Positions 36,053 to 60,512 of a stretch of DNA of 64,000 nt are shown piece by piece. The stretch lies in NCBI RefSeq assembly GCF_002896875.1, contig NZ_CP023278.1, forward strand, positions 5,154,501 to 5,218,500, in the 5' to 3' direction. How positions within the stretch are numbered: the stretch's first letter is position 1; each line of letters begins with the position of its first letter. Origin of the DNA: Nostoc sp. CENA543 (GTDB lineage Bacteria; Cyanobacteriota; Cyanobacteriia; Cyanobacteriales; Nostocaceae). The notes below the pieces were generated by a model, which was given only the letters and a program-made list of their open reading frames with translations, did not search any database and was not told where the DNA came from. Position numbers and translations under genes: made by a program.

Positions 36053-38044
36053 CTATTCCAACAACAAACTACACAACTCTTCAATCATCTGGCTATTTTG
36101 AGCAATCATCTGGTGAGCTGTAGCTTGTAGCTGACGAACATTTTGTAGTGTGGTGTTATCTATTTCTTCTAATTCCGCATCTAAAAATGTTTGAAATCGG
36201 TAATAACTAGTTTTAGCGTCTGGCTGACTAGGTGCAAACAACCTTTCTAATTGTCCTGCTACCACTTCACTACCACCATCAAACACTATATTTAACAGAG
36301 GTCTACCCCATTGTAATAATCCCCAGTTTTTGACTTCACTATAGGGGTAGGCACTTGTTAATGAACCTGTACCTAAAGAAACTACTAAAATATCTTCTAA
36401 ATTCAGCACTCTATTTTCTAATCGCTTACTACTCATTTGCGCTTCTAAAATAGCCAAATGGGCTGGATTATTCGCAAACACACCCCCATCAACTAAATTA
36501 TAAAAGCCGTTAGTATTGTGAGAAGTTACAATCCGATGGGGAGGAAAATAAGTGGGAGTCGAACTAGTAGCTAAGGCTGCATCTAAAAGCGAAAAACCTC
36601 TAGATAAATTGCGAAATTTCTTAGATTCTATCTGTTGTTTTTCCGGTTTGTTCGTAAAAAATATGGGAATCCGTTGTTCAATATCGTAACTAGTGACGAA
36701 AACTTCTTTGAGATTATTTTCTAGTAGCGCATCACCGAAATACTGTTTTAAAATTTCTTCTCTACTACTAGAAGCATATTTTGGTTGTAGAAATATATCT
36801 TCAATGGGGCCAAGTATTTTCTCAAATAATGGCTCATAAAAGATTTCCACACCATACTCTACAAATAGTTCTAACAAATCCTCCGCCGTATGTGCAGCTA
36901 GGGGTGAGTGATCAGATTCATTGATATTAACTTGAGGTTTAGTGAGTCCTAGTGCTAAAATTCCGCCACTGGAAGTCCCAGAAATTAAATCAAATAAACT
37001 AAATATCGGCTTTTGTGTACGTTTTTCAATTTCTGCGAGCAGGATAGCAGGAATAATACCGCGAATTCCACCCCCATCAATAGCCAGAATTTTATATTTG
37101 GGATGAGTTGTTGTATTCATGGTTGTTGGTGACTCCTGTGGTTGTGGTGTTGATACGGGTTGGCTTTCTGTTTCCTCGGATGTGAAATTGATGAGAGTTT
37201 GGCTGGTTGCGGTTTCTGCGTTAGCTGTTGCTGTGGGTTGTTGTTCTTCTTGTGGCGTTACTAATACAGTCGTTGCGGGAGTGGGAATATCTGCGGGAGA
37301 ACTAATTGCTGTTTCAGTTTGAGGTTCCCTTTCTGGGGATGATGGGACTACAAATGGAATGCTTGCTAAACCCCAAATAGGACTACCGCGCAAAGTTCCA
37401 TGATAGGAGTCTCCTAGATGATTTTTGACAGTTTTCCCTCCGCCTTCATCTAACTTCCAATAAGCTACTAATCCAGCTTCATCGCCAACTATTATTCCGG
37501 CTCGATGGGTTTGAATTTCTGCTTGATTACAGGCATAATTCCAAACACTAATACAAGCTAATTGCCCTGTGAAATATATGCGATTATGTAAAGTCGCACC
37601 CAAAGTAATGGGACTTGTCGCTTTATTTAAAGCTGTCCCTTGAAACGCATCAACATATTCATGATCATCAAGATATACAGTCAACTGACCTTGATTAAAA
37701 ACAATAGCGAAAAAATGCCATTGGTTAATCGTTAATTCTCTATTACCAATTGTTCTGACAAATTTGCTAGCATTTTCATCAATATAGATGTCTAAATTAC
37801 CTGCTTCACTAATACCGAATTCAAAATTATCACTGTATCTGTCTGAAGAACGGGCAAAAAATACATTGCGCGCCCCGTATGTGGTAGCTTTATTTGTAAG
37901 TTTGTGTGGGTTGATCCATCCTGAAATTGTCAAGGCTGAACTTCCCTCAGCAAAAACACCACCAAGGTCATTTCTACCAAAATCTATATAATCATCTTGA
38001 CCATCAAATGTCAGAACTGATTGCTCAACTCCTTGATTTGTCAC
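36053..38044 (-). CDS. LamG-patatin-like phospholipase fusion
   Basis: 663 residues. Residues about 8-215 form a LamG/concanavalin-like domain (VLTFDGQDDYIDFGR, ALTISGWINP, GLVAYWKLDEGGG). A Thr/Pro/Gln/Glu-rich linker runs from 225 to 310, and a patatin domain from about 316 to 600: oxyanion loop DGGGIRG, nucleophile elbow GTSSGG, and the catalytic Asp in VDGGVFANNPA. Patatins hydrolyse membrane lipids with a Ser-Asp dyad. No signal peptide or membrane segment is seen, so the enzyme should be cytoplasmic unless exported otherwise. The LamG part may bind carbohydrate or position the enzyme. The gene converges on the AAA-WD40 gene. Confidence 0.9.
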   Translation of the reverse strand: MTNQGVEQSVLTFDGQDDYIDFGRNDLGGVFAEGSSALTISGWINPHKLTNKATTYGARNVFFARSSDRYSDNFEFGISEAGNLDIYIDENASKFVRTIGNRELTINQWHFFAIVFNQGQLTVYLDDHEYVDAFQGTALNKATSPITLGATLHNRIYFTGQLACISVWNYACNQAEIQTHRAGIIVGDEAGLVAYWKLDEGGGKTVKNHLGDSYHGTLRGSPIWGLASIPFVVPSSPEREPQTETAISSPADIPTPATTVLVTPQEEQQPTATANAETATSQTLINFTSEETESQPVSTPQPQESPTTMNTTTHPKYKILAIDGGGIRGIIPAILLAEIEKRTQKPIFSLFDLISGTSSGGILALGLTKPQVNINESDHSPLAAHTAEDLLELFVEYGVEIFYEPLFEKILGPIEDIFLQPKYASSSREEILKQYFGDALLENNLKEVFVTSYDIEQRIPIFFTNKPEKQQIESKKFRNLSRGFSLLDAALATSSTPTYFPPHRIVTSHNTNGFYNLVDGGVFANNPAHLAILEAQMSSKRLENRVLNLEDILVVSLGTGSLTSAYPYSEVKNWGLLQWGRPLLNIVFDGGSEVVAGQLERLFAPSQPDAKTSYYRFQTFLDAELEEIDNTTLQNVRQLQATAHQMIAQNSQMIEELCSLLLE

Positions 38045-38564: not shown

Positions 38565-38987
38565 TTAACGCCTAGCAGGATTGATTTTAGCACCAATGAT
38601 AGATTCATCTTGATATTTAATGAGAAATTGCGAATTATTGATTCTCATAACATCATAAATTTCTGGTGTAAAAACAGAGTTGATTGAAGCTATTGCATCA
38701 GCAATGGAAATTTTAAAAGCCAGGGGTATTTTAAAATTAAGCACTGATTTTGGCATGGCTTTCACATTTAAGTGTAGTTTCTTGTTAGTGACGTACCACA
38801 CTCCAGTAAATTTGTTACCTGTTATTAGTTCCTGAGCTTTATAGAACAAAGATGTTTGAATCTTAATTTCCTCATAAGTCATATCATCTTTAAATTCAAT
38901 AGTGACTTTTTCTAAAGACGTATTAAAACGCCACTTACCGATGAGTAAAACCTCGATTTCAATATCAGAATGTTTACTACTATCCAT
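38565..38987 (-). CDS. Unknown protein, 140 residues
   Basis: Not recognised. Soluble, with alternating hydrophobic strands (EIEVLLIGKWRFN, KVTIEFKDDMTYEE, TGVWYVTNKKLHLNV) that suggest a beta-barrel or lipocalin-like fold: GKWRF...TGVWYV echoes small lipocalin-like stress proteins, but I would not assign it. It follows the GUN4-domain gene on the same strand after 62 bp and may belong to the same transcription unit. Confidence 0.55.
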   Translation of the reverse strand: MDSSKHSDIEIEVLLIGKWRFNTSLEKVTIEFKDDMTYEEIKIQTSLFYKAQELITGNKFTGVWYVTNKKLHLNVKAMPKSVLNFKIPLAFKISIADAIASINSVFTPEIYDVMRINNSQFLIKYQDESIIGAKINPARR

Positions 38988-39049: not shown

Positions 39050-40729
39050 TTATAAAGAATTTTCATAACATTTTTTGACACGAGAAAAAAATAAGTGCAT
39101 TTGCCAAACTAACCAAGACTTGACTCGCCAAGCAGCCATTGAAAGGGTATCTGATGATGATTGTGGTATAAGTTTTGGACTTTGTGGTTCATAGTTTAAC
39201 CATTTTGCTGGTAGATGTCCCATTGGTGTCATTGGGGATAGTTGAAAGGTTAGTTGTTCATAGTCTAACCAATTTCCATCTTTTCGCCATCCTAAGCGAT
39301 CGCCCAGTTTTTTTTCTGTTTCATAATCTACTTGACCACCCATTTCACTCCAGATAGTCTGCTGAATTCTAAAGCCAAAATAACCATAACTGTATTGTTC
39401 CCACAGTTGATCAAGAATCTGGAGAACTTGACAAGGGAAGTTTTCAATATCTTCTTGATAAACTTCATCCCAATAATTTTTTTTCATAACTTTTAACATT
39501 AATTTTGCTGTTTCAATATCAGCTTCTTGCCATTTGTGCTTTGCTAGCAAATCACGCAATAGAGTATAATTAACGTCTTGATTAATAATAAATTCTTGCT
39601 TACCAGGAGGATGATTATTTGTCAGTTCTATTAATCCTGTTGCTTCCACAGCAGATAAAGAGGGTGGAGAGACAAAATTAACTTCTGCTTGGTCAAGGAT
39701 TTGGATTTGATCGGTGAGTTCCTGAGATACGTAATTAGAGATTAAATCGATGCCTTGCTCTAAAAATACCCCATCTTTGCTAATATCGAAATTATGGGTT
39801 TGCCAGTCTAATAATTGAGATTGAGTCAAAGCATCTTTTAATCTGGCATTTTTTTCATAAATTTTTACCATCAAATCGATGAAATTGGCAGCTACCGAAT
39901 TATTTTCCTCAATTTCTAATGAATTTGACTGGTACTTTAAAATATTATCACCAAGATTTTTAATGTCTCCGACAGTTGCATAAAAATATTCGTCCACTTT
40001 GACGACTTCATCTATTAAGGATTGAAAGGGACTAAAGTATCCTTGGATAGAATCTTCAAAATTAATAGCGTTGTAGGCAATCTTAGCAATTTCTTGCCGA
40101 ATTTTATGGGCTTTTTGCTGATATTCGTAAATTTCTTGATAAACTGCTAAATCTTTAACTATTTGCTGGACAACTTTCCTTTGATTTTTCGTATCCTCTG
40201 CTAGTTTACTAATGCCGCTACTAATGACTTTAATTTTATCTAAGGTTAATAAATAAGCATTACTCAATACAATAACCGCTTTGTAATTTTCTTTTTTTTC
40301 CCACTGAAGTTCGTGTAATATTTTAGGATTCTGATGATTTTTCAGTTCTAATTTACTTCTAGTGTCTTCTAATCTTTTGATTTCTAAATATTTCTCTTGA
40401 AATAATTTCTTGAGATTAGCCATCAGGCTCAATAAAAAATCGTGATAACTATCTTGATAGTTTTCGAGGAAATCAATGATATAATTATAATCTGTAATAA
40501 ATAGCTGAATTTCTGCTAAAATTTCTCCCTGATTAATTGCTTTTTTCCGTTTAATTATCCCACCAAAGTTATCATAACGAACACCTTCCTTAATAGATGT
40601 TTGGCGTTCTCTAATTTTTTTTTGAAATATTTTAACAGCGTGATTTTTCAGTACAGGTAATTGGTAAGTGCTTTCGTAAATTTTAACTTTCTTGTAGGTA
40701 ATAAATCTTTTTTGGTTTTGAGTCAGCAT
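39050..40729 (-). CDS. Coiled-coil protein with C-terminal GUN4-like domain
   Basis: 559 residues. Residues about 60-340 are charged, Lys/Glu/Gln-rich helices likely to form coiled coils. Residues about 386-515 read like a GUN4 domain: NYTLLRDLLAKHKWQEAD, ETAKLMLKVM, DIENFPCQVLQILDQLWEQY, FGFRIQQTIW, GDRLGWR, LTFQLSP and GHLPAKW appear in family order. GUN4 binds porphyrins and activates Mg-chelatase, and GUN4-like domains also occur in other cyanobacterial multidomain proteins. The gene starts 27 bp after the stop of the upstream ABC exporter on the same strand, which links it to the graspetide locus. The N-terminal part is not recognised. Its role in that locus is unknown. Confidence 0.78.
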   Translation of the reverse strand: MLTQNQKRFITYKKVKIYESTYQLPVLKNHAVKIFQKKIRERQTSIKEGVRYDNFGGIIKRKKAINQGEILAEIQLFITDYNYIIDFLENYQDSYHDFLLSLMANLKKLFQEKYLEIKRLEDTRSKLELKNHQNPKILHELQWEKKENYKAVIVLSNAYLLTLDKIKVISSGISKLAEDTKNQRKVVQQIVKDLAVYQEIYEYQQKAHKIRQEIAKIAYNAINFEDSIQGYFSPFQSLIDEVVKVDEYFYATVGDIKNLGDNILKYQSNSLEIEENNSVAANFIDLMVKIYEKNARLKDALTQSQLLDWQTHNFDISKDGVFLEQGIDLISNYVSQELTDQIQILDQAEVNFVSPPSLSAVEATGLIELTNNHPPGKQEFIINQDVNYTLLRDLLAKHKWQEADIETAKLMLKVMKKNYWDEVYQEDIENFPCQVLQILDQLWEQYSYGYFGFRIQQTIWSEMGGQVDYETEKKLGDRLGWRKDGNWLDYEQLTFQLSPMTPMGHLPAKWLNYEPQSPKLIPQSSSDTLSMAAWRVKSWLVWQMHLFFSRVKKCYENSL

Positions 40730-40756: not shown

Positions 40757-42541
40757 TTAAGATATAGCAAGAGAAACTGATTTCTGCTGTCGGTACTCCT
40801 CCACAGGGACGAGTCGCCAATGATAATTGTCTGTAAGTTCTAAAACCCATTGATGATAATTAAACAAACTTTCTCTGTGTCCCACGCTAATGAAAGTTTT
40901 GTTTGTAGCTTGTAATTGCTCATACAAACTTTGTTCATTTTTTAAATCTAAAGCACTCGTTGCTTCATCTAAGATCGTGAAGCTAGGTTGGGCGATTAAT
41001 AATCTTGCAAAAGCTAAACGTTGCTGTTCTCCCAAAGATAGGATATTTTCCCAATTTACTTCTGTGTCAAAACTTTTCACACGGGTAAGTAAGTTTTGCA
41101 GATTAACTTTGTGGAGGATGGCTTCTAGTTCGCGATCGCTCATTTTCCTATCTGTGTGTGGATAAAGTAGCTGTTCGCGCAGAGTCCCCAAGATGATATA
41201 AGGACGTTGGGGCAGAAATAACATTTCTTTTAAGGCTGGTCTAACTAACCTACCAGTTCCCGCATTCCACAAACCGGCGATCGCTCTCAACAGAGAACTT
41301 TTACCCCTTCCACTAGAACCAACAATTAACAACCCTTCCCCTGGTGGAACTGCTAATGACAAGTCTTTAACTATGACTTGTTCATAATTGGGTGTGTTTA
41401 AGGTGATATCCTCAAACGCTAAACGCGGTTCTTCTAACACTCTAATAGTGCTGACATTCTCAGGTTTTTGACTCACTAACGCTAACGCATCCGAAAACTC
41501 GGCTAAACGCTGGACGTAACTAGAAAATCTGCCTGAATTGCCAAATTCTGCAATTAATACGCCTAAAGCATTAGAAAACATAAAGCTACAGAAGGTAGCT
41601 TGACTAATTTCTCCATAATTAATTTTATCCTGAATGAATAATGGGGTGAGAATAAACATAGAAAAAATACTAATTGCAGACTGATAAGCACTATTAAAAA
41701 TATCTTGACCTCTTTCCCAATTCAGTCTGCGTTCGGCATTTTTCAAGACATTATCAAACCTGCGCTGAATAATATTGATTTCTTCTGTCTCCCCCTGAAA
41801 AAAAGCTATTGATTCGGCGTGGTTTCTTACATGAGTCAAGCAATAATTAAAGTCAGCTTTAAATGCTAATTCTTCTCGATTAATTTTTGCTAATTCTTGG
41901 CTTAAAAAAACCGCCACAAAATTCCCGACGATTGTATAAATTACCAGGTATATGGTAATTTGCTGAGAAATTGTCCAGAGAATAATTAAAGCAGCAATCA
42001 TATCCATGAACTTTTCTAAGAAGGTCGTGGAAAATCTGATAGCATTAATTGTAATAGGTTCAATTTCCTGGGCTATGCGTTGGTCTGGGTTAGCAATATT
42101 AGACTTAAAATTGATTTTATAGTAGGCTTGATTGCTAAAATATTTCGTTAAAATATGATTATTTAACCACTTGTACCAATCTATAGCAATTTTCTTTTTG
42201 ATATATTTAGAAAATGCACTGAGCAGGACAGTAACGACAATAAAAAGGATAGATATCCAGATAGTATTGAGATACTTTTCTAGATTTCTCTCTTCAATGA
42301 CGATATCAAAAACATAACGATTCCAAAAACTACTAACAGTATTGACACCTACAACAGAAATGATTAATATGAGCAAAAACAGAAACATTCCCCAGGAGTG
42401 AATCACTTCAGAAAATGCCCTTGTTCCTACTTCTGTCGGATACCAATAGGGGCCAGCAACTAATTTTAAATCCCGCCAAAGTTGTAAGAGAGTAGAAAAA
42501 GGATTGATTGGTGCTTGCTGATTAGCAATTCGAGTTTGCAT
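40757..42541 (-). CDS. BacA/YddA-type ABC exporter (permease-ATPase fusion)
   Basis: 594 residues. An N-terminal membrane part (about residues 30-340) has five or six hydrophobic helices and the EELAFKADFNYCLTHVRNHAESIAFFQGE stretch typical of the SbmA/BacA/YddA and ABCD-type permease fold. The C-terminal ATPase has GSSGRGKSSLL (Walker A), the signature LSLGEQQRLAFARLL and FTILDEATSALD (Walker B). Such transporters move peptides or fatty acyl molecules. It lies between the ATP-grasp ligase and the GUN4-domain gene, and is a close paralogue of the gene at 44425. Likely exports the graspetide. Confidence 0.88.
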   Translation of the reverse strand: MQTRIANQQAPINPFSTLLQLWRDLKLVAGPYWYPTEVGTRAFSEVIHSWGMFLFLLILIISVVGVNTVSSFWNRYVFDIVIEERNLEKYLNTIWISILFIVVTVLLSAFSKYIKKKIAIDWYKWLNNHILTKYFSNQAYYKINFKSNIANPDQRIAQEIEPITINAIRFSTTFLEKFMDMIAALIILWTISQQITIYLVIYTIVGNFVAVFLSQELAKINREELAFKADFNYCLTHVRNHAESIAFFQGETEEINIIQRRFDNVLKNAERRLNWERGQDIFNSAYQSAISIFSMFILTPLFIQDKINYGEISQATFCSFMFSNALGVLIAEFGNSGRFSSYVQRLAEFSDALALVSQKPENVSTIRVLEEPRLAFEDITLNTPNYEQVIVKDLSLAVPPGEGLLIVGSSGRGKSSLLRAIAGLWNAGTGRLVRPALKEMLFLPQRPYIILGTLREQLLYPHTDRKMSDRELEAILHKVNLQNLLTRVKSFDTEVNWENILSLGEQQRLAFARLLIAQPSFTILDEATSALDLKNEQSLYEQLQATNKTFISVGHRESLFNYHQWVLELTDNYHWRLVPVEEYRQQKSVSLAIS

Positions 42542-42637: not shown

Positions 42638-43618
42638 CTAATTTTTACCTGTCAGGAGAACTTCTGCGATCGCCTGGGAAATGGGAAAGTGTGGTGCAAA
42701 AATCTCTAGCCAGAAAAATTCCCCCACGGGGTTAAGTTCCAAAAATACATATTGACCATCTGGTGTGACAATCATATCAATTGCCCCATAGTTTAAACTA
42801 AAATTAGCCATCATTTGTAGGAGCTTTTTCTCAATATTTTCAGGTAAATCATAGGGTTTCCAAGCGTCTTTTAATGCTCTTCCTTGTTTACGCCAGTCAT
42901 AATTAGCACCGGCACAATTTTGGGAATCTACGGCGGCGGTAAATACACGATGTCCAACAATAGTTATCCGCAACTCTAAAGCCTTGGGGATGTTTTCTTG
43001 AAATGTCATCGGACAAAAACGTAGTCCTTCCAGATTTTTTAAATCCTCATCTGTAACTGGACTTGTGAATACAAAAAACTGCTCTCCCTGTTCGCCAAAA
43101 ATAGCAAAGGAGGAAAGCATTTTTGTGACGATACCTTGTTGATGACAATCTAACGCAAATTGCTTAACTGCTTCTGGATTATTAGTAGTCAGAGTGCGTG
43201 GAGTCAGCAGTCCTAATTTTCGTGCTACTTGCAACTGTAGTTGTTTGTTATGAGTTCGTTCCACATTTGACATTTGATCAAGGTGAAAGCCTGGAAGACT
43301 AGCAATCATACCGCGAACCGTGGCGCGAGATTCTTTAATTGATGCTTCTTTATATTGCTTGTCCATCGTGTCGGGAATTCTCTCCCCGTAACGCATCCGC
43401 CGATACCAAACCGAGGACACCTCGTTTAAATCCAGTTGCTGTTCACCGTCAGTAATAATTACCCGTTCTGTGTCGCCTTGGTAAATATCCAGTTTCACTT
43501 CCGTAGGATATCTATCAGTATCAAAGCGAAATGCTTTTTCGCCTTGAGATTCAATAGCTTTGATGACTAGAGGAATGCTGTCATTGTCATTACTATATGT
43601 AATTATTAATACTGTCAT
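42638..43618 (-). CDS. mdnC: Microviridin-type ATP-grasp ligase (MdnC/MvdD-like)
   Basis: ATP-dependent ligase that forms omega-ester (lactone) rings in graspetides, acting on Thr/Ser and Asp/Glu side chains of the precursor core. 326 residues. The N-terminus MTVLIITYSNDND, the VSSVWYRRMRYG, LGLLTPRTLTTNNPEAV and ITKMLSSFAIFGE stretches, and the metal/ATP site FLELNPVGEFFW (from about residue 292, ELNP at 294-297) agree with the MdnC/MvdD branch rather than the MdnB/MvdC branch as I remember them. The precursor gene lies about 540 bp upstream on the same strand. No MdnB-type lactam ligase follows. Self-contained frame, ATG at 43618. Confidence 0.9.
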   Translation of the reverse strand: MTVLIITYSNDNDSIPLVIKAIESQGEKAFRFDTDRYPTEVKLDIYQGDTERVIITDGEQQLDLNEVSSVWYRRMRYGERIPDTMDKQYKEASIKESRATVRGMIASLPGFHLDQMSNVERTHNKQLQLQVARKLGLLTPRTLTTNNPEAVKQFALDCHQQGIVTKMLSSFAIFGEQGEQFFVFTSPVTDEDLKNLEGLRFCPMTFQENIPKALELRITIVGHRVFTAAVDSQNCAGANYDWRKQGRALKDAWKPYDLPENIEKKLLQMMANFSLNYGAIDMIVTPDGQYVFLELNPVGEFFWLEIFAPHFPISQAIAEVLLTGKN

Positions 43619-44154
43619 AAATATACGATTTTCATTAAATTAGTTTGTTGTTGGTGACTATAGAATCAGAATATCAGCGATCGCGGCCGCATTAAGCAAG
43701 TCTCAATTTTGCTTCAACATCCCCTACTGGCCTATAGGGTTAATTTTTCAAAACACATATTTACAGATGGTGTGACGATAAAATCTCATACTCCAAACAA
43801 CAACCCCCATTTATCCATAAAAACTTTTTTATTTAAATTTGTAGCTGCTTCATTTTAAATCCCCGACTTCTTATAGACATCGGCATAGTAGCTTGCCTAG
43901 ATGTGAGAATTCGGGGATATTAAGACAGTCATCAGTTATCAGTTATAACAGCGTCTAGTGATGTATTTGGCGGATGCAGCAACGCTTTTCACCAATTAGT
44001 TTGGTGCTTCCCAAATGTGATTTTACCCAACACAGTTTACTGTTCACTGTTTACTGTTAAAGTAGCAGCGATCGCCTAACTATTGTTAATACTTGAATCA
44101 GCAGTGTCGAGCTATTTGAACCTGCTATTTTTTTCACTTGTGAATTTACTATAT
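43619..44154. other. Non-coding region between precursor and ligase genes
   Basis: About 540 bp. An inverted repeat ATCCCCGACTTCT (43859-43871) / AGAATTCGGGGAT (43906-43918, one mismatch) can form a hairpin that might end or weaken transcription from the precursor. HIP1-like sites lie near 43678 and 44069. CAGTTAT and TTACTGT heptamer-like repeats occur at 43930-43950 and 44035-44060. I searched for a second short precursor and saw none. Confidence 0.5.
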
Positions 44155-44310
44155 CTAGCGATCTTCCCAGTCAGAAGGCCACTTAAAAGTCCAGATTGGT
44201 GGTGGTGTTGGCTCTGGTTCTGGTGTTTCTGGTGGCTCTTCTTCTACCAAGAAACGGGTAAAGAATGGCATTGCGTCGTTATTTCCTAATTTTGGTATTT
44301 TTGTGGACAT
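44155..44310 (-). CDS. mdnA: Microviridin-like graspetide precursor peptide
   Basis: 51 residues starting MSTKIPKLGNNDAMPFF. The leader has the ligase-docking motif PFFTRFL (residues 15-21; canonical PFFARFL). A strongly acidic, Pro-rich linker follows (residues 22-38, EEEPPETPEPEP type). The core IWTFKWPSDWEDR (39-51) contains the full TxKxPSDxED pattern: Thr41 and Ser46 for lactones with Asp47 and Glu49/Asp50, and Lys43 for a possible lactam. AGAGGAAA lies about 6 bases before the ATG, a good ribosome site. There is no Gly-Gly cleavage site, which many peptide leaders have. The gene sits 114 bp after an ABC exporter and upstream of the ATP-grasp gene. Confidence 0.93.
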   Translation of the reverse strand: MSTKIPKLGNNDAMPFFTRFLVEEEPPETPEPEPTPPPIWTFKWPSDWEDR

Positions 44311-44424: not shown

Positions 44425-46542
44425 TCACTCAAATACCTTGAGCCACTTCATAACCTTTGCATCTTTATTATAGCGGTAGGTAAAACCATCTTTAGCAGCA
44501 ATGGGTTGACCTTTGCTAGCTTTACTTCTCACAGTCCCCAGTGAATAGTTAGTTAACTTTTGCATTTCCTGATGAGAAAGTCCTACATTTGTAGCTATAT
44601 CTACTACTGCTATTTCTGGTGAATTTATGGATTCTTCATCAGTCGCAGAATCTGTGGTAACTTCTGCATTTTCAGGGGATATATTTAATGTTTCTGGTTG
44701 CATGGTAGATTGACTATTAGGTGTCAAATCTATTGTGATATTTGCAGTTGCAAAGATATCAGTAGCAATCTCTGGTGCTTTTTGCTGGCGATATTCCTCT
44801 ACAGTCAAAAGTCGCCAAGTAGAATCGTGTGCAAGTTCCAATACCCACTGATGGTAGTTAAATAAGCTTTCTCGATGTCCGACGCTAATGAATGTTGTGT
44901 TTGTCTGTTGTAATTGTTGATATAAATTACCTTCATTATGTAAGTCTAAAGCACTCGTAGCTTCGTCTAAAATCGTGAAGCTAGGACGGGTCACTAATAA
45001 GCGTGCAAATGCTAGACGTTGTTGTTCTCCTAATGAGAGGATATTTTCCCAAGGAAGTTCTGTATCAAAGCCATTGATGCGACTTAATAAGTTTTCTAGA
45101 TTAACTTGTTGCAAAATAGCTTCTAGTTCGCGATCGCTCATTTTGCGTTTCGTATGCGGATAGAGTAACTGTTCACGCAAAGTCCCTAAAATGATGTAAG
45201 GACGTTGAGGTAAAAACAATACTTCTTCTAAAGGAGGCCTCACCACACGACCACTTCCTGAGTTCCATAAACCTGCGATCGCTCTCAATAAAGAACTTTT
45301 TCCGCGACCACTCGGCCCTACAATCAACAGACCCTCTCCTGGTTGCACAGATAGAGACAATTCTTCGACAATTACCTGCTCATAATTGGGTGTTTGTAGT
45401 GTGACATTTTCAAAAGCTAGTCGCTTTTCTTCTACGGTTTTAATGATGCTGACATTCTCTGGTTCTTTAGTAACAATTGCTAAGGCATTCGACAGTTCCA
45501 CTAAACGTTCAATATAACTAGAAAAACGTCCTGAAGTGGCAAATTCTCTGATTAATTCTGCCATCGCCGTGGCGAACAGATTACAAGCTAAAGCCGCTTG
45601 AGAAAGTGTGCCGAAATCAATGTCCCCTTGAATCTGTAAAGGCCCAAATACTATAAATGGAAATATTTGAATAACCGCCTGATATCCTCGATTAAAGATG
45701 TCCTGACTTCTCTCCCAATCTATCTTACGTTTAACACTTTGCACAATCTTATTGAATCTACGCTTAACTATGTCTAATTCTTCCTCTTCTCCCTGGAAAA
45801 AAGCTATTGATTCTGCATGATTGCGAACATGAGTTAAACTGTATGTATAATCTGCTGATGATTCAACTTCCTCTTGTTTAATTTTGTTTAATTCCTGTGC
45901 CAAATAAATCGCAATTAAGTTACCAATTACAGTGTAACAAACCAAAGCAATTGCCACAAAACTGGACAGAGTCCACAACAGGACTAAAAAAGCTGTCATT
46001 TCTAGAACTTTTTCTAAAAACGTAGCTGAGAAACTCAAAAAATCTTTAGTCAAAGGCTCGATTTCTTGTGATATCTGTTGATCGGGATTGTTAATATCTG
46101 ATTTAAAATTTATTTTATAATAGGCCCGCTTCTTGAAATATTTTGCTAAAATCTGGTCGTTAAGCCATTGATACCAATCTAGAGCTATTTTCTTTCTAAC
46201 AAACTTAGAAATGCCTACTAAAAACGTTACCACAATGAGAGCAGCCCCATAAAGCAATAACAGTTCAGTGAATTTTTTGGCATCTTTGTCAACAGTAATC
46301 ACATCTAGTAAATAGCGGCTAACAAAGCTATTAAAAACCGTGACCGCCACAAGCGCAACAATTAATATGATTAAGAGAGCGAGCATTCCCCATGTGCGAA
46401 TCACATCTGAAAATGCGCGCTCGTTGGCATCTTTAGGATACCAATAGGGGCCGATGATCGTCTGGAAATTTTGCCAAAAATTATTAGCTTCCGTAGCAGA
46501 ATTATCTTTCCCAGAGTTATTAATAAAAGTTGTAGCTTGCAT
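44425..46542 (-). CDS. BacA/YddA-type ABC exporter with extra C-terminal domain
   Basis: 705 residues. Residues 1-590 match the neighbouring exporter closely over both membrane and ATPase parts (GPSGRGKSSLL, LSLGEQQRLAFARLL, FTILDEATSALD, SVGHRESLFNYHQWVLEL). Residues about 600-650 are a Thr/Ser/Glu/Pro-rich linker. The last ~50 residues form a small domain (LSHQEMQKLTNYSLGTVRSKASKGQP...) resembling a helix-turn-helix or wing, unusual on an exporter. The gene ends 114 bp before the graspetide precursor and begins after a hairpin behind the HphA-like gene. It may export the graspetide, the anabaenopeptin-type peptide, or both. Confidence 0.85.
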   Translation of the reverse strand: MQATTFINNSGKDNSATEANNFWQNFQTIIGPYWYPKDANERAFSDVIRTWGMLALLIILIVALVAVTVFNSFVSRYLLDVITVDKDAKKFTELLLLYGAALIVVTFLVGISKFVRKKIALDWYQWLNDQILAKYFKKRAYYKINFKSDINNPDQQISQEIEPLTKDFLSFSATFLEKVLEMTAFLVLLWTLSSFVAIALVCYTVIGNLIAIYLAQELNKIKQEEVESSADYTYSLTHVRNHAESIAFFQGEEEELDIVKRRFNKIVQSVKRKIDWERSQDIFNRGYQAVIQIFPFIVFGPLQIQGDIDFGTLSQAALACNLFATAMAELIREFATSGRFSSYIERLVELSNALAIVTKEPENVSIIKTVEEKRLAFENVTLQTPNYEQVIVEELSLSVQPGEGLLIVGPSGRGKSSLLRAIAGLWNSGSGRVVRPPLEEVLFLPQRPYIILGTLREQLLYPHTKRKMSDRELEAILQQVNLENLLSRINGFDTELPWENILSLGEQQRLAFARLLVTRPSFTILDEATSALDLHNEGNLYQQLQQTNTTFISVGHRESLFNYHQWVLELAHDSTWRLLTVEEYRQQKAPEIATDIFATANITIDLTPNSQSTMQPETLNISPENAEVTTDSATDEESINSPEIAVVDIATNVGLSHQEMQKLTNYSLGTVRSKASKGQPIAAKDGFTYRYNKDAKVMKWLKVFE

Positions 46543-46765: not shown

Positions 46766-47944
46766 TTATTCAAAGATACCATCTTTCCATAGTTTTAAGA
46801 CTTCGTTAGCTGTAAAATAGCGTTCTTGTTCTGCTGCCAGAGATTTGATTACAGAACGCATTTTCTCATACTTTTGTCTAGGTTGAGGATTTTGTAATTG
46901 CTTTTCAAATAGATATTGGAAATTACTGACTCCACTCCATTTCCCAAATACTACATCTATCTTGTTGTGAGGAAATATGGCATAGCTTTTGGGGTCACGA
47001 AACAAAGAATTGACATGGATACCTGATTCGTGACTTTGTGCAGTTTGAGAATAGGGTGGTGCAGGACGAATCCCCATTTGCTGAATATAGTTAGTCACTT
47101 TGGTAATTTCGTCGTAGTCGATCCCCTCTACCTCAATGCCAAACCGGACTCGCAACCCATCCAATACCTGCTCAAGCGCAACATTTCCGGCTCGTTCTCC
47201 CAAACCACAAAATGTCCCCGACACTAAAGTAGCTCCCGCCATCAGAGACTGGAGAGTATTTTCTAAAGCCAAGCCCATATCGTTGTGATAATGTACTCCC
47301 AACGCTACCCCTGCGGTAGATTGGAGTAAATCATTAATCCAGATATAACTTTTGTCTGGATTAAGTACCCCCACCGTATCGCACAGTAAGAAGTTTTCGA
47401 TATAAGGACTGCACGAGCGAATACATTCTACTAAAAAGTCAAAATCGGCTCTAGAAGCATCTTCCGCCGCAAAATCTACTCTCATTCCAGCCACGTTTGT
47501 AGCGTAGTGGAGATTCTCTACAATCACATCAAGAGCATCTTGACGAATCTTATTGATGATGTGGGATGGGATATCGTCATCAATAGTTTTCCCTTGAAAT
47601 TCACTCATGAGGCGAACTTGGGGATTGCGTAAAAACAGCAGTCGATCAGAAACTGCATGGAATAGAATCAGGCGTTTTACACCGTAGCTTTTTGCCTGAT
47701 CAATGTGTTCTTTTCCCATCATCGTATCAGCCGTAATCAGCTCGTCCCATCCCTCTAATACTAAGGATTCGAGTAGCTCTGCTTCTTGTTCGCAGACACT
47801 CGGCATGATGGCAAATCCATCAACTCCTGTTTGTGCAATCAGACGGGCAAGTTTGTGTTTATTGGGATATGAGAAGAAAATGTCTACTTGTTGTTCTCCA
47901 TCCCGCAGGGTTTCATCGTAAATTTTGATCGGAAGAGTTTGCAT
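46766..47944 (-). CDS. hphA: HphA-like benzylmalate/homocitrate synthase family enzyme
   Basis: DRE-TIM metallolyase of 392 residues. YDETLRDGEQ (from residue 8) carries the metal and catalytic residues. The metal site HYHNDMGLALENTL and GLGERAGN follow. It lacks the regulatory LeuA dimer domain, as homocitrate and benzylmalate synthases do. In anabaenopeptin producers HphA condenses acetyl-CoA with phenylpyruvate (or its hydroxy form) as the first step to homophenylalanine/homotyrosine. The position directly after aptD-like NRPS, and a homo-aromatic code in AptC, support that role. Homocitrate synthase (NifV-like) is the alternative. No HphB or HphCD gene is in the window. Confidence 0.78.
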   Translation of the reverse strand: MQTLPIKIYDETLRDGEQQVDIFFSYPNKHKLARLIAQTGVDGFAIMPSVCEQEAELLESLVLEGWDELITADTMMGKEHIDQAKSYGVKRLILFHAVSDRLLFLRNPQVRLMSEFQGKTIDDDIPSHIINKIRQDALDVIVENLHYATNVAGMRVDFAAEDASRADFDFLVECIRSCSPYIENFLLCDTVGVLNPDKSYIWINDLLQSTAGVALGVHYHNDMGLALENTLQSLMAGATLVSGTFCGLGERAGNVALEQVLDGLRVRFGIEVEGIDYDEITKVTNYIQQMGIRPAPPYSQTAQSHESGIHVNSLFRDPKSYAIFPHNKIDVVFGKWSGVSNFQYLFEKQLQNPQPRQKYEKMRSVIKSLAAEQERYFTANEVLKLWKDGIFE

Positions 47945-48013
47945 TTTTTTATACCAATTTAAATTTACAATTCAGCAAATTAGGTTAATGATTGTAGTTA
48001 ATTGATAGGTTAA

Positions 48014-51000
48014 TTAAGTGATCATTAACCGTAATTGCGAGGCTAAGATTTTTACATTCGGTTCATAAAGCATTCGACCGTGGTTTCCTGGTACAGATAC
48101 GACTTTGACGGGGTTTTGAGTATATGCTTGCCATCCCCAATCCGATAGCTCGTAATTAGAAATAGCTCGGAGTTCTTGCAAAACAATTTCATGCACTTCT
48201 GAGGCGCGGAATAAAACAATTGGCGCAGCAATTTGATGACGAGGCTGATAATTTGCGTAATTAATTGTCAGCTGTATCATGACCTGCATATTGGTTTTGA
48301 GTAAATCAAGACTTGAGTATTCTGGTAAGACATTCTTTTTGTATAAATACTCTGCCGCTAAATCCCAACGGGCTTGGTCATCACTTTGAGCAGTTAAATC
48401 AGCGTATGTTATACCCAGAGGAATTCCCTTGACAGCTTCAACTCGTTGGATTAATTGCCAAATCCAATCAATCTCTGCCCTATTAGTTAAATATTCAGGG
48501 TGAATTACCAATCCAGAATCTAAGATAACTAGTAATTCTACCTTTTCACCTTGCTGTTCTAGTTGGGCAGCCATTTCAAAAGCGACAGCACAACCTGATG
48601 AATATCCTGCTAATATGTATGGACTTTTTGCTTGCTGCTGACGTAGTAATTTTAGGAGTTGACTAGCATGAAGCTCTACTGACTTTGGAACCTTATTAAT
48701 TCCATCTCTCCCTGGAGTTTCTAGACTATAGACTGGATGATTTTCTAAGTTGACAGCCAAATCTTGAAAATAGAAACCATGTCCGTTAGCACCAGGTACA
48801 CAAAATAGAGGAGTGGCATTTCCTTGAGGCTGGAGTGAAAGCAAATCGGAATGAGATTTTCGTACCTGACTATCAGAGAGTTGTTCGGCTAATTGAGCAA
48901 TGGTTGGATTTTGAAATAAACTGCTTAAAGCCAGTTTTTGTCCAAATACTTCTTGAATATGATTAAGTAATTTGATGGCTAATAAAGAATGTCCACCCAA
49001 ATCAAAAAAGTTATCATGAATACCAATTTTTTGACGTTCGAGTACAGCAGACCAAACCTTCTCTAATTGTTGTTCAACTGCGTTGCGTGGTGCTGTATGT
49101 AAATTCGTCACCGTAAAATGAGGAGTAGGTAAAGCTTTACGGTCTGTTTTGCCATTAGGAGTTAAAGGTAATTCATCTAAGACAATGATCTGAGTAGGAA
49201 TCATGTATTCAGGTACTCTTGATTTGAGATATTTTTTCAAATCACTACAAAAATCATCATCAATTCCCATTACATAAGCAATTAAACTTTGGTTGCTCTC
49301 CGTTTTATATAAAGTGACAACCGCTTCTTCCACAGATGGATGTTGTAATAATAGTGACTCAATTTCACCTAATTCAATTCTAAAACCGCGTAATTTTACC
49401 TGCTCGTCAATGCGCCCCAGATATTCTAAATTGCCATCATCTCGCCATCTGGCTAAATCACCAGTTTTATAAATGCGCTCAACTTTACCGAATAATTCCA
49501 CTTCCAGAAATTTTTGAGCAGTAGTTTGGGGACGATTTAGATAACCTCTGGCTAAACCAACTCCAGCAATGCACAATTCTCCTGGTATTCCTGGGGGTAA
49601 AGGTTGATTTTGTGCATCTAAAAGATAGATGCGAAGATTAGATAATGGTTTACCAATAAGCGGTTTTTTACCATTGGGTTGACAAAGAGCAATGCTGGCA
49701 CAAACTGTAGATTCCGTAGGCCCGTAGCCATTGAAAAAACGCCGTTCTTTTGCCCATCGGGTAACTAATTCTGTAGGGCAAGTTTCACCCCCAGTCACCA
49801 AAACTTGCAAATCAGGTAAGGTGGCTTGGGGTAAGAGAGATAAAACTGAAGGGGGTAGAGTGACGTGGGAAATTTGGCACGCTTCTAAAAAGTTGACTAA
49901 GTCTTGACTAGGTGACAAGGTATATTTTTGGGCTAGATATAAACAAGCACCCGCACTCAAGGTAGTCGCAATTTCCCACATGGAAGCATCGAAACTGAAA
50001 GAAGCAAATTGCAGGACACGGCTTTGGGGTTGAATTTGCAAGACTTCATCAACTGCCAAAGTCAGATTTACCAATCCTCGATGCTCAATCATTACACCTT
50101 TAGGTCTACCCGTTGAACCAGAGGTGTAAATTACATAAGCTAAATGATCGGGCGTACTTTGAGGAGTGGGATTTGCTGTTGATTCTCCAGTAAAATTTTC
50201 TGCATCTAAACAAATTACTTGTAGGGAGTTGGTCAGTTCAGTTAATGGTAATTTGTGTAAGAGAAAGCTTTGGCTTAACAATATAGATATCCCAGAATCT
50301 TCTAACATGAACTGAATTCTTTCTGGGGGATAATTAGGGTCAATCGGTACATAAGCACCACCGGCTTTGAGGATACCCAATAACCCAATAATCATTTCTA
50401 AGGAACGCTCAACACTAATACCAATGAGGGTATCTGGTTGAATTTGGTGATTGTGAATTAAATAATGCGCGAGTTGGTTGGCTTTTTGATTTAGTTGCTG
50501 ATAAGTGAGGCTTTGAGATGCAAAAACTAAAGCAATATGATGAGGATTTTTGGCAACTTGTTGTTCAAATAAGTCAATTAAAGTTTGATCTTCAGGATAA
50601 TCAGTTTGAGTTTGATTCCAGCATTGTAGTTGTAGTAGTTCGGCTGCTGTCATCAAAGGCAAAGTATTGATTGATTGGTGCGGATGATCAAGAATGCCCT
50701 TGAGTAGCACTTCAAAGTGTTCTGCCATTCGTTGGATAGTAGCCCTGGCAAATAAGTCGGTAGCGTATTCCCAAGTGCAATTTAACTGGTTGTCAGACTC
50801 AGTGATCAATAGGGTTAAGTCAAACTTAGCGATCGCACCCTTGACTCCCAGCAATTCAATGTCTAACCCTGATAAATCCAAATCTGGACTTTCATTATTT
50901 TCTAGAGCCAACATCACTTGGAATAAGGGGTTATAGCTCATACTGCGTTCTGGACGTAACTTTTCTACCAACACCTCAAAGGGAACGTCTTGATGAGCAT

Positions 51001-52195
51001 ACGCATCTAAACAAGTTTGGCGAGTTTGCTGTAAGAACTCAATAAAATTTTGCTCTGGTTTGATTTGCTGACGCATTACCAAAGTATTGACAAAAAAGCC
51101 AATTAACCCTTCCGTTTGGCTATGGGTGCGGTTAGCAATGGGAGAACCAATACATAAGTCTTCTTGGCGACTGTAACGAGATAGTAAAATACTCAACGTA
51201 GCCAACAACGTCATATATAGACTTACGCCTTGTTGTTGACTAAAAGCATTAACGGCCGCAGTTAATTCCGGTGAGAGAGAGTAGCAATAGCGATCGCCTT
51301 GATAACTTTGCTGTGCAGGACGAGAATAATCAGTAGGTAATTCTAGTAATGGGGAAACGTCGCTGAGTTGCTGTTTCCAGTAATTAATCTGCTTTTCTAA
51401 TACTTCCCCTTGTAACCAGTGGCGTTGCCAATGGGCATAGTCACTGTATTGAATCGGTAAGGGAGCCAGATTTGGCGTTTGACCTTGAGAATAAGCAGCG
51501 TAAGCTTGCCGTAACTCCCGCACAAATACACCCATTGACCAGCCATCACTGATAATGTGGTGCATATTAATTGCCAACACAGATTTTTCCCCTTCTAATT
51601 GCAGCAGTTTGGCTTTAAACAAAGGGCCAGTATTTAAGTCAAAGGGTTCTTGTGCATGAGCATCAATTAAATCTTGGATATTTGGACATTGTAAAAATTT
51701 CTCCCCAGCTTCTTCCCAGTCCCCAGTCCCTAGTACCCAGTCCCCAGTCCCTAAAGCTATTTGGGGTTCTCCTGCCACCGTAGGAAAATACATCCTCAGA
51801 CTCTCATGGCGATTGAGCAGATAAGCCAGACTAGAGCGCAGGGCATCAATATCTAGTTTGCCGTTTAATTGGAGAGCGATCGGCATATTATAAATAGCTG
51901 ATGAACCCTGGAGTTGTGCTAAGAGCCAGAGGCGTTGTTGTGCAAAGGAAAGCAGTTTGGGAGAGTCGGGACTTAAAGCCGGAATTTCTGCTGTTGAGAC
52001 AACTTGCGTTTTAGCAGCTTTTAAGAAGGTGAGAATCTCGGCTTTGTGATTTTGAATTTCCTGCTTGAGTTCCGCCGTCAGGGCATTTTTGCTAGTACGA
52101 ATCCGTAACTTATCATCTTCAGCCCAAATTCGACAGCCCAGATTCTGCAAACGAAGTATTAAAGAAACTACTTGTTGATTTTGTGTCATGGTCAT
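48014..52195 (-). CDS. aptD: NRPS, AptD-like: docking-C-A-PCP-TE
   Basis: 1393 residues. An N-terminal docking domain of TubC type (1-62) precedes a condensation domain (HHIISDG from His212), an adenylation domain (YTSGSTGRPKG near 686), a PCP with Ser1070 in LGGHSLLA, and a thioesterase with GYSSG nucleophile Ser1199. The TE releases or cyclises the peptide, so this is the last module. Hand-aligned specificity residues D-A-W-T-V-G-G-V-C resemble Phe codes. It overlaps aptC by 4 bp (ATGA). At 51714-51754 heptamer repeats are translated in frame (GTGDWVLGTGDW) inside the condensation domain, before the His motif. Confidence 0.93.
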   Translation of the reverse strand: MTMTQNQQVVSLILRLQNLGCRIWAEDDKLRIRTSKNALTAELKQEIQNHKAEILTFLKAAKTQVVSTAEIPALSPDSPKLLSFAQQRLWLLAQLQGSSAIYNMPIALQLNGKLDIDALRSSLAYLLNRHESLRMYFPTVAGEPQIALGTGDWVLGTGDWEEAGEKFLQCPNIQDLIDAHAQEPFDLNTGPLFKAKLLQLEGEKSVLAINMHHIISDGWSMGVFVRELRQAYAAYSQGQTPNLAPLPIQYSDYAHWQRHWLQGEVLEKQINYWKQQLSDVSPLLELPTDYSRPAQQSYQGDRYCYSLSPELTAAVNAFSQQQGVSLYMTLLATLSILLSRYSRQEDLCIGSPIANRTHSQTEGLIGFFVNTLVMRQQIKPEQNFIEFLQQTRQTCLDAYAHQDVPFEVLVEKLRPERSMSYNPLFQVMLALENNESPDLDLSGLDIELLGVKGAIAKFDLTLLITESDNQLNCTWEYATDLFARATIQRMAEHFEVLLKGILDHPHQSINTLPLMTAAELLQLQCWNQTQTDYPEDQTLIDLFEQQVAKNPHHIALVFASQSLTYQQLNQKANQLAHYLIHNHQIQPDTLIGISVERSLEMIIGLLGILKAGGAYVPIDPNYPPERIQFMLEDSGISILLSQSFLLHKLPLTELTNSLQVICLDAENFTGESTANPTPQSTPDHLAYVIYTSGSTGRPKGVMIEHRGLVNLTLAVDEVLQIQPQSRVLQFASFSFDASMWEIATTLSAGACLYLAQKYTLSPSQDLVNFLEACQISHVTLPPSVLSLLPQATLPDLQVLVTGGETCPTELVTRWAKERRFFNGYGPTESTVCASIALCQPNGKKPLIGKPLSNLRIYLLDAQNQPLPPGIPGELCIAGVGLARGYLNRPQTTAQKFLEVELFGKVERIYKTGDLARWRDDGNLEYLGRIDEQVKLRGFRIELGEIESLLLQHPSVEEAVVTLYKTESNQSLIAYVMGIDDDFCSDLKKYLKSRVPEYMIPTQIIVLDELPLTPNGKTDRKALPTPHFTVTNLHTAPRNAVEQQLEKVWSAVLERQKIGIHDNFFDLGGHSLLAIKLLNHIQEVFGQKLALSSLFQNPTIAQLAEQLSDSQVRKSHSDLLSLQPQGNATPLFCVPGANGHGFYFQDLAVNLENHPVYSLETPGRDGINKVPKSVELHASQLLKLLRQQQAKSPYILAGYSSGCAVAFEMAAQLEQQGEKVELLVILDSGLVIHPEYLTNRAEIDWIWQLIQRVEAVKGIPLGITYADLTAQSDDQARWDLAAEYLYKKNVLPEYSSLDLLKTNMQVMIQLTINYANYQPRHQIAAPIVLFRASEVHEIVLQELRAISNYELSDWGWQAYTQNPVKVVSVPGNHGRMLYEPNVKILASQLRLMIT

Positions 52196-55100
52196 AGTTC
52201 GATTTCCTCTTCGTCTGAATTTAAAGCTTCTATATCTGCTGTGGCAGAGTTCAGCCAGAGGCAGCTGTCTATATAATTTGCCAAGTCAATCAGGTTGGGA
52301 GTCTCAAAGACTTGACGCAGTGGCAGTTCTATATTGAAAGTGTCGCGGATGCGATAGCTCAGTTGGGTAGCCAGTAATGAATGTCCTCCCAAATTAAAGA
52401 AATGATCTTGTCGAGCTATGACTTCATATTTCAGTAGCTTTGCCCATATCTGCGCCAGGGATTTTTCTGTCTCCGTTAAGGGTAATTCAATATCTGTGGC
52501 TGCAACTTTTGTGTCTGGTGCAGGTAAGGCTTGACGGTCTATTTTGCCATTGGGTGTGAGTGGTAGTTTATCCAAAACCACAAAATGGCTAGGAATCATA
52601 TAATCAGGCAGAGTGTTACTTATAAAATCGCGCCATTGTGCCAATAAAGCTGGATCAACTTGACTGCTGTGATCTTGGCAAGGTTGATTGGCGTAATCTG
52701 ACCAAGGTTTCCATTGCCAAGCGTCTTTGGTAGCAAATCGCCCTGAGTCAGCGCGGTCTTGGAGGTCTCCCCCATGAGCGACTGACGAACCCCGAAGGGT
52801 AGTTTTTGCCTCTCCAGAGATATGCCGTTGAAAAACGACATGATAATCGGCGTATCCTGTGGAGCTATATTGAATAAATACCGTATATGGCAAATCTCGC
52901 GCTAAAGTACGAAATGCTTCGGGTTCTATGCCTGATTTGGTTTGGGCGATCGCAGTTTTTAAGTCGGCGACAGTACCATTTAATTGGGCAATTTGTTCTA
53001 ACAACGCCATTTCTGAAGTGAGACGGGCATTAGGAATCTTTTTAATCCCTAATAAATCTGGTTGCTCAGTTGTTAAAATTCTGGCAATGGTTTCTATATG
53101 CAACTGTTGTTCGTGCCAATCTAACCATTCAGGTTCGGTTAAGGGAGCATCTACCTGATCTAAATGTAAAACTACGTCATAACGAAAACGGCTCATTTCC
53201 GTGTGGCTGTAACCCCGTTTCAATTGAATGTGAACGTGACTAATCCGAGGAAATCTTTGCTGGAGGGCGATAAAGAAATCAGGGTCAATTAATAATTCTT
53301 CTTCGGTGCGAATGCTTTTTTTAATCTGTTGGCGCAATTCCTGAATTGATAAGTCATCAGGGGCGCGATAAAATTCGGCGGCGGTGTGGAAAGCCTCTAA
53401 TAAATGGAGATTTCGCACATCCCCAATAAATATTTTGCCTTGATTCTTGGTAGCGTTAATTGCCCCTGCAATGACTGACAACAAGTAATCCCAAGAGGGG
53501 AAATATTGAATTACAGAATTCATGATCACCAAATCAAAAGCATTGGCTGCAATGCCATCGAACTGGTGAGCAGAGCTATGTTTTAGGGTAACTTTGTCTT
53601 GGAGTGACTGCTGTTCTAGATGTTGTGCTATGTACTGCAATGCCTCCGCAGACAAATCTGTGCCAAGATAATGCTGACAATGCGGCGCGACTTTAAACAA
53701 TAACATCCCTGAACCGCAACCAATTTCCCAGACTTTTTGGGGTGCCAGTTCGAGAATTTGCTCAACGGTTGTATCTCGCCATTCTTGCATCGCGCTTTGG
53801 GGAATGGGTTGGCCTGTGTAGCTATCATTCCAACCAACTATATTCAGGGTGGGATCAGGGGTGGGGGTAGATGACTGAGAGTAGCTATTGTTAAACACTT
53901 GTTCCCACAATTCTACTTGTTCACTTTGGCTAGTATTGTCTGTAGCTGTGGGAACAACATAAGCTACTAGCTGTCGATCGCGCTTGTCGTTAGGCGTGAC
54001 GCAGGTATCGCTATCTTCCCGCACGATGACAACTGCTTCCTGAATTTGGGGATGTTTAACTAATGAAGCTTCTATTTCGCTTAATTCAATGCGAAAACCA
54101 CGCAGTTTGACTTGGTGATCGATTCGTCCCAGATATTGCAGATTACCATCAGGTAGCCAACGCGCTAAATCGCCAGTTTTATAAATTCGCTCGCTTTTAC
54201 CAAATAATTCTACTTGCAGAAATTTTTCGGCGGTAGTTTCAGGACGATGCCAATAACTCTGCGCTAAACCTGCGCCAGCAATGCAGAGTTCCCCTGGTAT
54301 TCCTGGGGGCAGGGGTTGATTGTACTGATCTAAAATATAGATGCGAGTGTTGGCGATCGCCTTACCTATACTTGGCTCATCCTGGGCATTTTTGGCAACT
54401 TTTGTAAATGTCGAGTAAGTTGTATCTTCTGTAGGGCCGTAGAGGTTATAAATTTCTTTGACAGCTGTGGTTTGATATAAAGCCTGTACCAAACTATTTT
54501 TTAATGGTTCGCCAGCTAAATTAATTACCTGCACACTGGACGGAATCGTATTCATATGCAGCATTTCCGCCGCAGCACTCGGTACAGTATTAATCAAAGT
54601 TATTGGTATAGAACCGGTATTTGCTTGCTCAATGTAGAGTGCATTTTCTACTAAAATCACGCTACCACCTTGAGTCAAGGGAACAAAAATTTCAAAAATC
54701 GAGAGGTCGAAACAAATAGATGTGGATGCTAGAACACCTGCCAGTTGTTCTCCACTAAAGACTGAATGCGCCCATTTGACAAAGGCGACGGCACTAGAAT
54801 GTGCGATCGCTACTCCTTTGGGTCTACCTGTAGAACCTGAAGTATAAATTACATAGGCTAAATCATGATCATCACTAGTTATTGGGGGATCATCGGTTGG
54901 TTGCCCACACCACGTTTTTTCATCCAGAAATACTACTTGAGTCGTATTTTTGAGCTTCTCTAAAGACAGTTGCTGTTTCAGGGATTTGGTTGTGAGTAAT
55001 ACCAGAGCCTTACTATCTTCCAGCATTAAATGTATGCGTTCTTGGGGATAGGTTGGATCAATTGGTACATAAGCCCCGCCAGCTTTGAGGATAGCAAATA

Positions 55101-59976: not shown

Positions 59977-60076
59977 AATATCTATTGTGAAAATTTAATT
60001 TTTAAATGAACAATCAAGTATAGGAAACAAAGAGAATTTTAAAGTTATTGAGGATGGCTAATATATTTCTTATAAC

Positions 60077-60457: not shown

Positions 60458-60512
60458 ATTCTAAAATCCTGAGAATTTTGCATTTGTTAGATTAAATTTC
60501 TATAGCTAGTTG

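Follow-up and report, generated by a model that had tools for sequence, protein, structure and literature searches.

A class I microviridin locus that appears to have lost its lactam ligase, and an orphan class II lactam ligase elsewhere in the same genome

Introduction

Class I microviridins (Microcystis mdn, Planktothrix mvd and Nostoc clusters) are made from precursors with a single core and no Gly-Gly site. Class II is represented by AMdnA, AMdnB and AMdnC of Anabaena PCC 7120. Marinostatin and clusters without MdnB form a third group, with two lactones and no lactam, and the absence of MdnB from microviridin clusters is already in print (both in an excerpt of a review, PMC7823629). According to the same excerpt, the lactam ligase MvdC needs both lactones to be formed first. 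A single change within the PFFARFL leader motif stops amide formation while the lactones still form, and MvdD, the lactone ligase, tolerates changes. Bicyclic microviridins can still be matured and can inhibit proteases (PMC7823629, in excerpt).

Results

A class I precursor and a lactone ligase in the window

We analyzed a stretch of 64,000 nucleotides (the window) from a 7.2 Mb genome in 6 contigs that is listed as 100% complete. We found that it contains a microviridin precursor gene and a lactone ligase gene side by side, as in class I (Table 1). The precursor has a PFFTRFL leader, a Pro-rich linker and a single core ending in TFKWPSDWEDR, which is the class I arrangement of a PFFxRFL leader and one TxKxPSDx(E/D)(E/D) core. 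AGAGGAAAACAGCA lies immediately 5' of its ATG. The precursor scored 34.6 bits with PF12559 (Pfam; cut-off 21) and 30.9 bits with NF033738 (NCBIfam; cut-off 26), confirming a preliminary description of this DNA that had reported a 51-residue precursor with a PFFTRFL leader and a TFKWPSDWED core. Its statement that the linker between leader and core contains no Gly-Gly site was also borne out by the precursor sequence, whose leader has none, and this too is as in class I. The precursor of the sister genome, Nostoc sp. CMAA1605, is likewise 51 aa.

The same description regarded the acidic, Pro-rich linker as unusual. We rejected this view because linkers of this type are common: among 72 class I-like precursors adjoining an MvdC, the segment joining leader motif and core contains at least five prolines in 14, the linker of Anabaena sp. 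4-3 (VEEEPPQTPEPEPVPPPIW) is nearly identical to that of the window (VEEEPPETPEPEPTPPPIW), and a Pro-rich leader group has been described for Microcystis microviridins (PMC13039773, in excerpt). NosP, the leader protease of the other group, is encoded in trans (same excerpt).

The window ligase scored 561.4 bits with the MvdD profile TIGR04184 (cut-off 475), versus 302 bits with the MvdC profile TIGR04185 (cut-off 425). Its nearest solved structure by sequence was 5ig9 (522.8 bits; PDB), which is MdnC (PMC7823629, in excerpt). It is 95% identical to the MvdD of CMAA1605, and because that genome carries the same pair, the pairing of precursor and MvdD is not a chance one. The cluster also contains an ABC transporter, as in class I. 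The transporter 3' of mvdD stands in what we take to be the MdnE/MvdA position; the second lies upstream of the precursor, as in Sphaerospermopsis.

Table 1. Features of the microviridin locus and its surroundings in the window
Feature	Position	Strand	Basis and occurrence
Laminin-G/patatin-like phospholipase	36053-38044	(-)	PF01734, PF13385; near 30/80 MvdD loci
140-aa protein, no Pfam match	38565-38987	(-)	near 20/80 MvdD loci
GUN4-domain protein	39050-40729	(-)	PF05419; near 29/80 MvdD loci
ABC transporter, ABC_membrane_2 domain, located 3' of mvdD, a placement shared by many class I-like clusters	40757-42541	(-)	
MvdD/MdnC-type ATP-grasp ligase (two lactones), 326 aa	42638-43618	(-)	TIGR04184, PDB 5ig9
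Remains of the 3' end of a decayed mvdC/mdnB (lactam ligase), ~56 C-terminal residues, interrupted by stops and breaks in frame	about 43661-43831	(-)	
Microviridin class I precursor, 51 aa	44155-44310	(-)	PF12559, NF033738; homologue in CMAA1605
Second ABC transporter, 705 aa, paralogous (60% identical to the first)	44425-46542	(-)	Pfam, comparison

Neighboring genes were compared across 80 MvdD loci, which we divided by the look of their precursors into 55 class I-like loci (L047-L101) and 25 class II loci (L102-L126). All 30 loci with a patatin-like phospholipase were among the 55 class I-like ones (0/25 class II). Our literature search, of mostly open-access papers, found no paper that treats microviridin together with patatin. 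GUN4 next to microviridin genes is already in print (PMC4558948, in excerpt). A hydrophobic small protein of 134 aa (L059 13434-13838) is conserved at 34/80 MvdD loci; searching the window for it at E 0.1 gave nothing. Directly upstream of the cluster (46766-63719) are NRPS genes and a homocitrate/isopropylmalate synthase-like gene, the nearest of which are syntenic in Sphaerospermopsis.

A decayed mvdC between precursor and mvdD

Whole-genome searches found no intact MvdC/MdnB gene in the window, which gave only the MvdD gene and one 56-position MvdC fragment. Where class I has an adjacent lactam ligase, this locus has only the decayed fragment. It lies between the precursor and mvdD, spans 43664-43831 in the profile match, corresponds to positions 262-317 of the 318 in TIGR04185, scored 26.3 bits in the whole-genome profile search and contains 5 stops. 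Residues 270-325 of the MvdC of Sphaerospermopsis kisseleviana NIES-73 matched it in tblastn with an Expect(2) of 4e-11 when the gap alone was searched and 2.7e-10 when the search covered the 16-kb locus. This remnant is also present in CMAA1605 (E 1e-10).

In S. kisseleviana NIES-73, MvdC is intact in the same neighborhood. The order there is NRPS, homocitrate-synthase-like gene (last two thirds only, without its first third), ABC transporter, precursor, MvdC, MvdD, ABC transporter and GUN4, and the window has this order minus MvdC. Because the remnant is present in both Nostoc genomes and an intact MvdC stands in the matching Sphaerospermopsis order, MvdC was most likely lost before the window lineage and CMAA1605 split. 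These comparisons indicate that the cluster is a class I microviridin locus that lost its lactam ligase through decay, and we hold this anatomy of the locus with high confidence. With the remnant in place, the lone-ligase state is best read as a secondary loss and not as a separate single-ligase design.

Using the GNAT encoded in the Anabaena sp. 4-3 cluster as the single query, we found no MdnD-like acetyltransferase, a feature of a subset of class I, in the window. The query had four weak matches in the genome, the best with 36 bits over 79 aa, all outside the window. A GNAT close to the orphan MvdC described below (L005 12211-12735) scored 17.9 bits with this query and was rejected as MdnD. 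The preliminary description had reported a lone ligase, with neither an MdnB-type ligase nor an acetyltransferase nearby. This holds for intact genes in the window; it does not hold as an original design, and the MvdC remnant had been overlooked.

An orphan MvdC in a decayed class II cluster

We found one full-length MvdC in the genome, at C1:1872826-1873779 (TIGR04185, 489.4 bits; cut-off 425), ~3.32 Mb from the window ligase. A genome search for an MdnB-like ATP-grasp gene had been proposed along with the idea of a second ligase acting in trans, and that idea now has a real candidate. The preliminary description had named a co-regulated MdnB homologue just outside the island as a finding that would refute it; this was not borne out, since the MvdC that we found sits 3.3 Mb off. 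Its best PDB match was 7m4s, AMdnB, with an alignment from end to end.

At the same place in CMAA1605 is a class II cluster of a C39 transporter, a precursor with three cores, MvdC (interrupted where the contig ends), MvdD and HlyD. All five genes are present in another genome of the same genus (G102). The flanks of the orphan locus are 93-96% identical to CMAA1605 (87% in one stretch of 347 bases). Relative to CMAA1605, ~2.8 kb is missing, comprising most of the C39 transporter and the precursor, and 873 bp is missing in frame from MvdD, of which a 34-aa reading frame remains. MvdC (331 aa) and HlyD (503 aa) are intact. The alignments show, at the level of sequence, that the class II cluster lost its precursor, transporter and MvdD in the window lineage while the two relatives kept them. 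In gene content, the losses of the two clusters are complementary: one full-length MvdD and one full-length MvdC remain.

The deletion by the orphan mvdC includes the DNA 5' of the class II precursor, so the operon promoter has probably been lost too. We counted 11 promoter-like sites in 1.7 kb before and within the orphan mvdC, compared to 6.6 ± 2.5 in shuffled sequences, and 6 around the window genes, compared to 5.7 ± 2.4; scans of this type are weak evidence.

We compared substitution rates pairwise. The orphan MvdC and its G102 counterpart gave a dN/dS of 0.108 (26.5 nonsynonymous and 53.5 synonymous changes, 329 codons). Values for comparison were 0.15 for the class II MvdD (CMAA1605 versus G102), 0.16 for the window MvdD (versus CMAA1605), 0.046 to 0.102 for HlyD and 0.045 for the transporter ABC1 (0.045-0.102 for the two taken together). 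The orphan MvdC thus gives no sign of relaxed selection in this comparison, although a recent loss of its partners would show none either.

Elsewhere in the genome, no sequence exceeded the PF12559 cut-off; the window precursor was the sole match. Six other matches to the PFFxRF pattern did not resemble a precursor. The class II precursor of CMAA1605, used as a query, matched only the window precursor, and weakly (E 1.28). On the strength of these searches we rejected a second intact precursor for the orphan MvdC. A third graspetide-type locus (L003 1079-2400; G000:C1 about 1344726-1346047) encodes a ligase and a 75-aa precursor with three TTLALGEEGG-like repeats. We rejected this ligase as the missing MvdC, since it scored 103 bits (cut-off 425) and has this repeat precursor of its own.

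Pairing of MvdD and MvdC in the family

We searched 217 family genomes for MvdD (E up to 1e-135) and scored a match as paired if an MvdC match (E up to 1e-115) lay within 5 kb. There were 148 MvdD matches in 117/217 genomes; one of the matches is an incomplete gene that scores below the cut-off. MvdC was within 5 kb of 118 and absent from that range for 30. Among the unpaired matches, four were at a contig edge, two had a frameshifted MvdC, one had an MvdC broken in pieces, one was itself a broken MvdD and one had no precursor found. Seven, the window included, had a truncated or remnant MvdC, and one had a trace of ~20 residues. No MvdC was detected nearby at E 0.01 in 13/30.

Across the 217 genomes, a single full-length MvdD and a single full-length MvdC at separate places, off contig edges, occurred only in the source genome and in G048. 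The MvdC locus of G048 has its own TxKxPSD-core precursor and no MvdD, and the core at its MvdD locus has R for Lys (L206, L174). In G159, MvdD is in two pieces ~455 kb apart, the N-terminal one adjoining MvdC (L203, L210); this cluster was probably broken by rearrangement. Nostoc sp. FACHB-152 (G216) has an MvdD with no precursor found nearby (L187) and also a paired cluster. On another of its contigs there is an MvdC with a precursor, and no MvdD in the remaining 4 kb of the contig (L211).

The lactam lysine and the lactam ligase

We compared cores at loci with and without MvdC. Loci with MvdC were 72 of the 80 MvdD loci, 66 of which gave 95 precursors and 137 cores. Loci without MvdC were 22 of the 30 unpaired ones (the four contig-edge, two frameshifted-MvdC, one broken-MvdD and one precursor-less loci were left out). 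Lys occupied the lactam position in 136/137 cores at loci with MvdC and in 38/47 cores at the 22 loci without it, window and CMAA1605 included; the remaining 9/47 had R or A. Without these two genomes, Lys was lost in 9/45 cores at 20 loci. By locus, 8/22 had R or A for Lys in one or more cores, and one more had lost the second acid. At the class I-like locus of Nostoc sp. FACHB-973, which has no MvdC, Lys is kept and WEN replaces the second acid.

Fisher tests gave 2e-5 by core and 3.8e-5 by locus, values that are indicative only because two different searches were compared, the genomes are related, the classes were split by look, and the motif expressions used to find cores and leaders leave strongly altered ones uncounted. 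The counts suggest that the lactam residue and its ligase tend to disappear jointly. This is no strict rule, since many loci without MvdC still have Lys. Lys43 and Asp50, which are required only for the lactam, are retained in the window and CMAA1605 precursors, and this fits either an MvdC acting in trans or a short time since the loss.

The leader motif is PFFTRFL in both of these precursors and PFFARFL in all 72 class I-like precursors that our motif expression located next to an MvdC. At the position of this T, one of 23 class II precursors adjoining an MvdC has S and another has V, so the class II ligase may be more tolerant there. The window and CMAA1605 precursors differ by 8 nonsynonymous and 8 synonymous codon changes. 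Most of the nonsynonymous ones are in the linker (5/8 residues in stretch 28-35); the core is changed at the free X position only, and the leader motif not at all.

Probable product of the locus

We propose that MvdD would bind the PFFTRFL leader and close the Thr-Asp and Ser-Glu lactones, that the leader would be cut off by a protease not seen within the cluster, and that the peptide would not be N-acetylated. Formation of the Lys-Asp lactam would require both expression of the orphan MvdC and its acceptance of the PFFTRFL leader. Since the lactones would be made by MvdD, the local mvdC is a pseudogene and the sole MvdC is the orphan, a bicyclic (bis-lactone) microviridin would be the default end product, and we give this reading an even chance. 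It is consistent with the type of the local ligase and the state of the local mvdC, with the intact MvdC in the same neighborhood of S. kisseleviana, and with the decay of the orphan's home cluster, whose upstream stretch is deleted. The leader argues for it too, given that MvdC is strict on PFFARFL in the reviewed work (PMC7823629, in excerpt). However, Lys43 and Asp50 are kept in both sister species, compared to the 9/45 losses elsewhere, the full-length orphan MvdC aligns with AMdnB over its whole extent and has a low dN/dS, and promoter-like sites, weak evidence as they are, precede it. Retention of the lactam residues may merely reflect a recent loss.

A serious rival, which we consider tentatively, is that the class II lactam ligase of the dead cluster acts in trans on the MvdD bis-lactone. 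The product would then be a normal tricyclic microviridin that owes its rings to enzymes from two classes, with one pathway encoded at two distant places. No other full-length MvdC was found in this genome, which is listed as 100% complete. MvdC and HlyD survive where three of the five genes of their cluster were lost, and the dN/dS of MvdC is below both ligase values, though above those of HlyD and ABC1. The kept lactam residues and the S or V in 2/23 class II leaders also point this way, as does the processing of the class I precursor MdnA by the class II lactone ligase AMdnC in vitro (PMC5934393, in excerpt). Against trans action stand the reported strictness of MvdC, the deletion upstream of the class II operon and the mismatch of classes; cross-class activity of a class II MvdC was not found in the literature examined. 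Partner loss may also be too recent for decay to appear. The preliminary description had offered both outcomes, lactone-only product and second ligase in trans. Both still stand, the latter strengthened by a named gene.

It is improbable, in our judgment, that both clusters are dying, with no mature product from either and the intact genes as relics not yet broken. Two decayed clusters in one genome and the 8 nonsynonymous changes beside 8 synonymous ones in the precursor would fit, but those changes avoid the leader motif and all of the core except its free position, and the sister comparisons of MvdD and ABC1 gave low dN/dS. An original lone-ligase system with an unusual linker and never an MvdC is very unlikely: it is not unusual for MvdD to lack a full MvdC nearby (30/148), but the remnant is in place with a chance expectation of 2.7e-10 in the 16-kb locus, syntenic relatives carry MvdC, and the linker type is common.

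We calculated [M+H]+ values for unacetylated peptides with three N-termini, each of them a guess. The values for loss of two and three waters were 1729.812 and 1711.802 for IWTFKWPSDWEDR, 1616.728 and 1598.718 for WTFKWPSDWEDR, and 1430.649 and 1412.638 for TFKWPSDWEDR.

Discussion

For the loss of MvdC, this locus provides the pseudogene itself, and comparison is possible with a sister genome, with a relative in which the gene is still intact and with the one ligase that survives elsewhere. The locus allows a clear test of whether a class II ligase serves a class I precursor inside a cell. Trans action, if true, would mean that reciprocal gene loss had split a RiPP pathway, and would be a natural instance of cross-class ligase use. 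Our literature search, of few and mostly open-access papers, found no report of split or complementary microviridin clusters. If residue and ligase do tend to be lost jointly, sequence would become a better guide to the number of rings. Both the remains of a gene and its possible replacement can escape a survey limited to 20 kb.

The orphan MvdC belongs with class II by its match to AMdnB and its synteny with the CMAA1605 cluster, and its locus differs from class II in the deletion of precursor, C39 transporter and MvdD. Like marinostatin and the clusters without MdnB, the window has no intact lactam ligase; unlike them, it keeps a usable lactam pair in Lys43 and Asp50. The closest systems are the class I microviridins, with which the window shares the leader helix motif, the TxKxPSDxED core, MvdD/MdnC, the ABC transporter and membership of the Pro-rich linker group. 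It differs from them in that MvdC/MdnB is a fragment, no MdnD-like acetyltransferase was found, and the leader reads PFFTRFL in place of PFFARFL.
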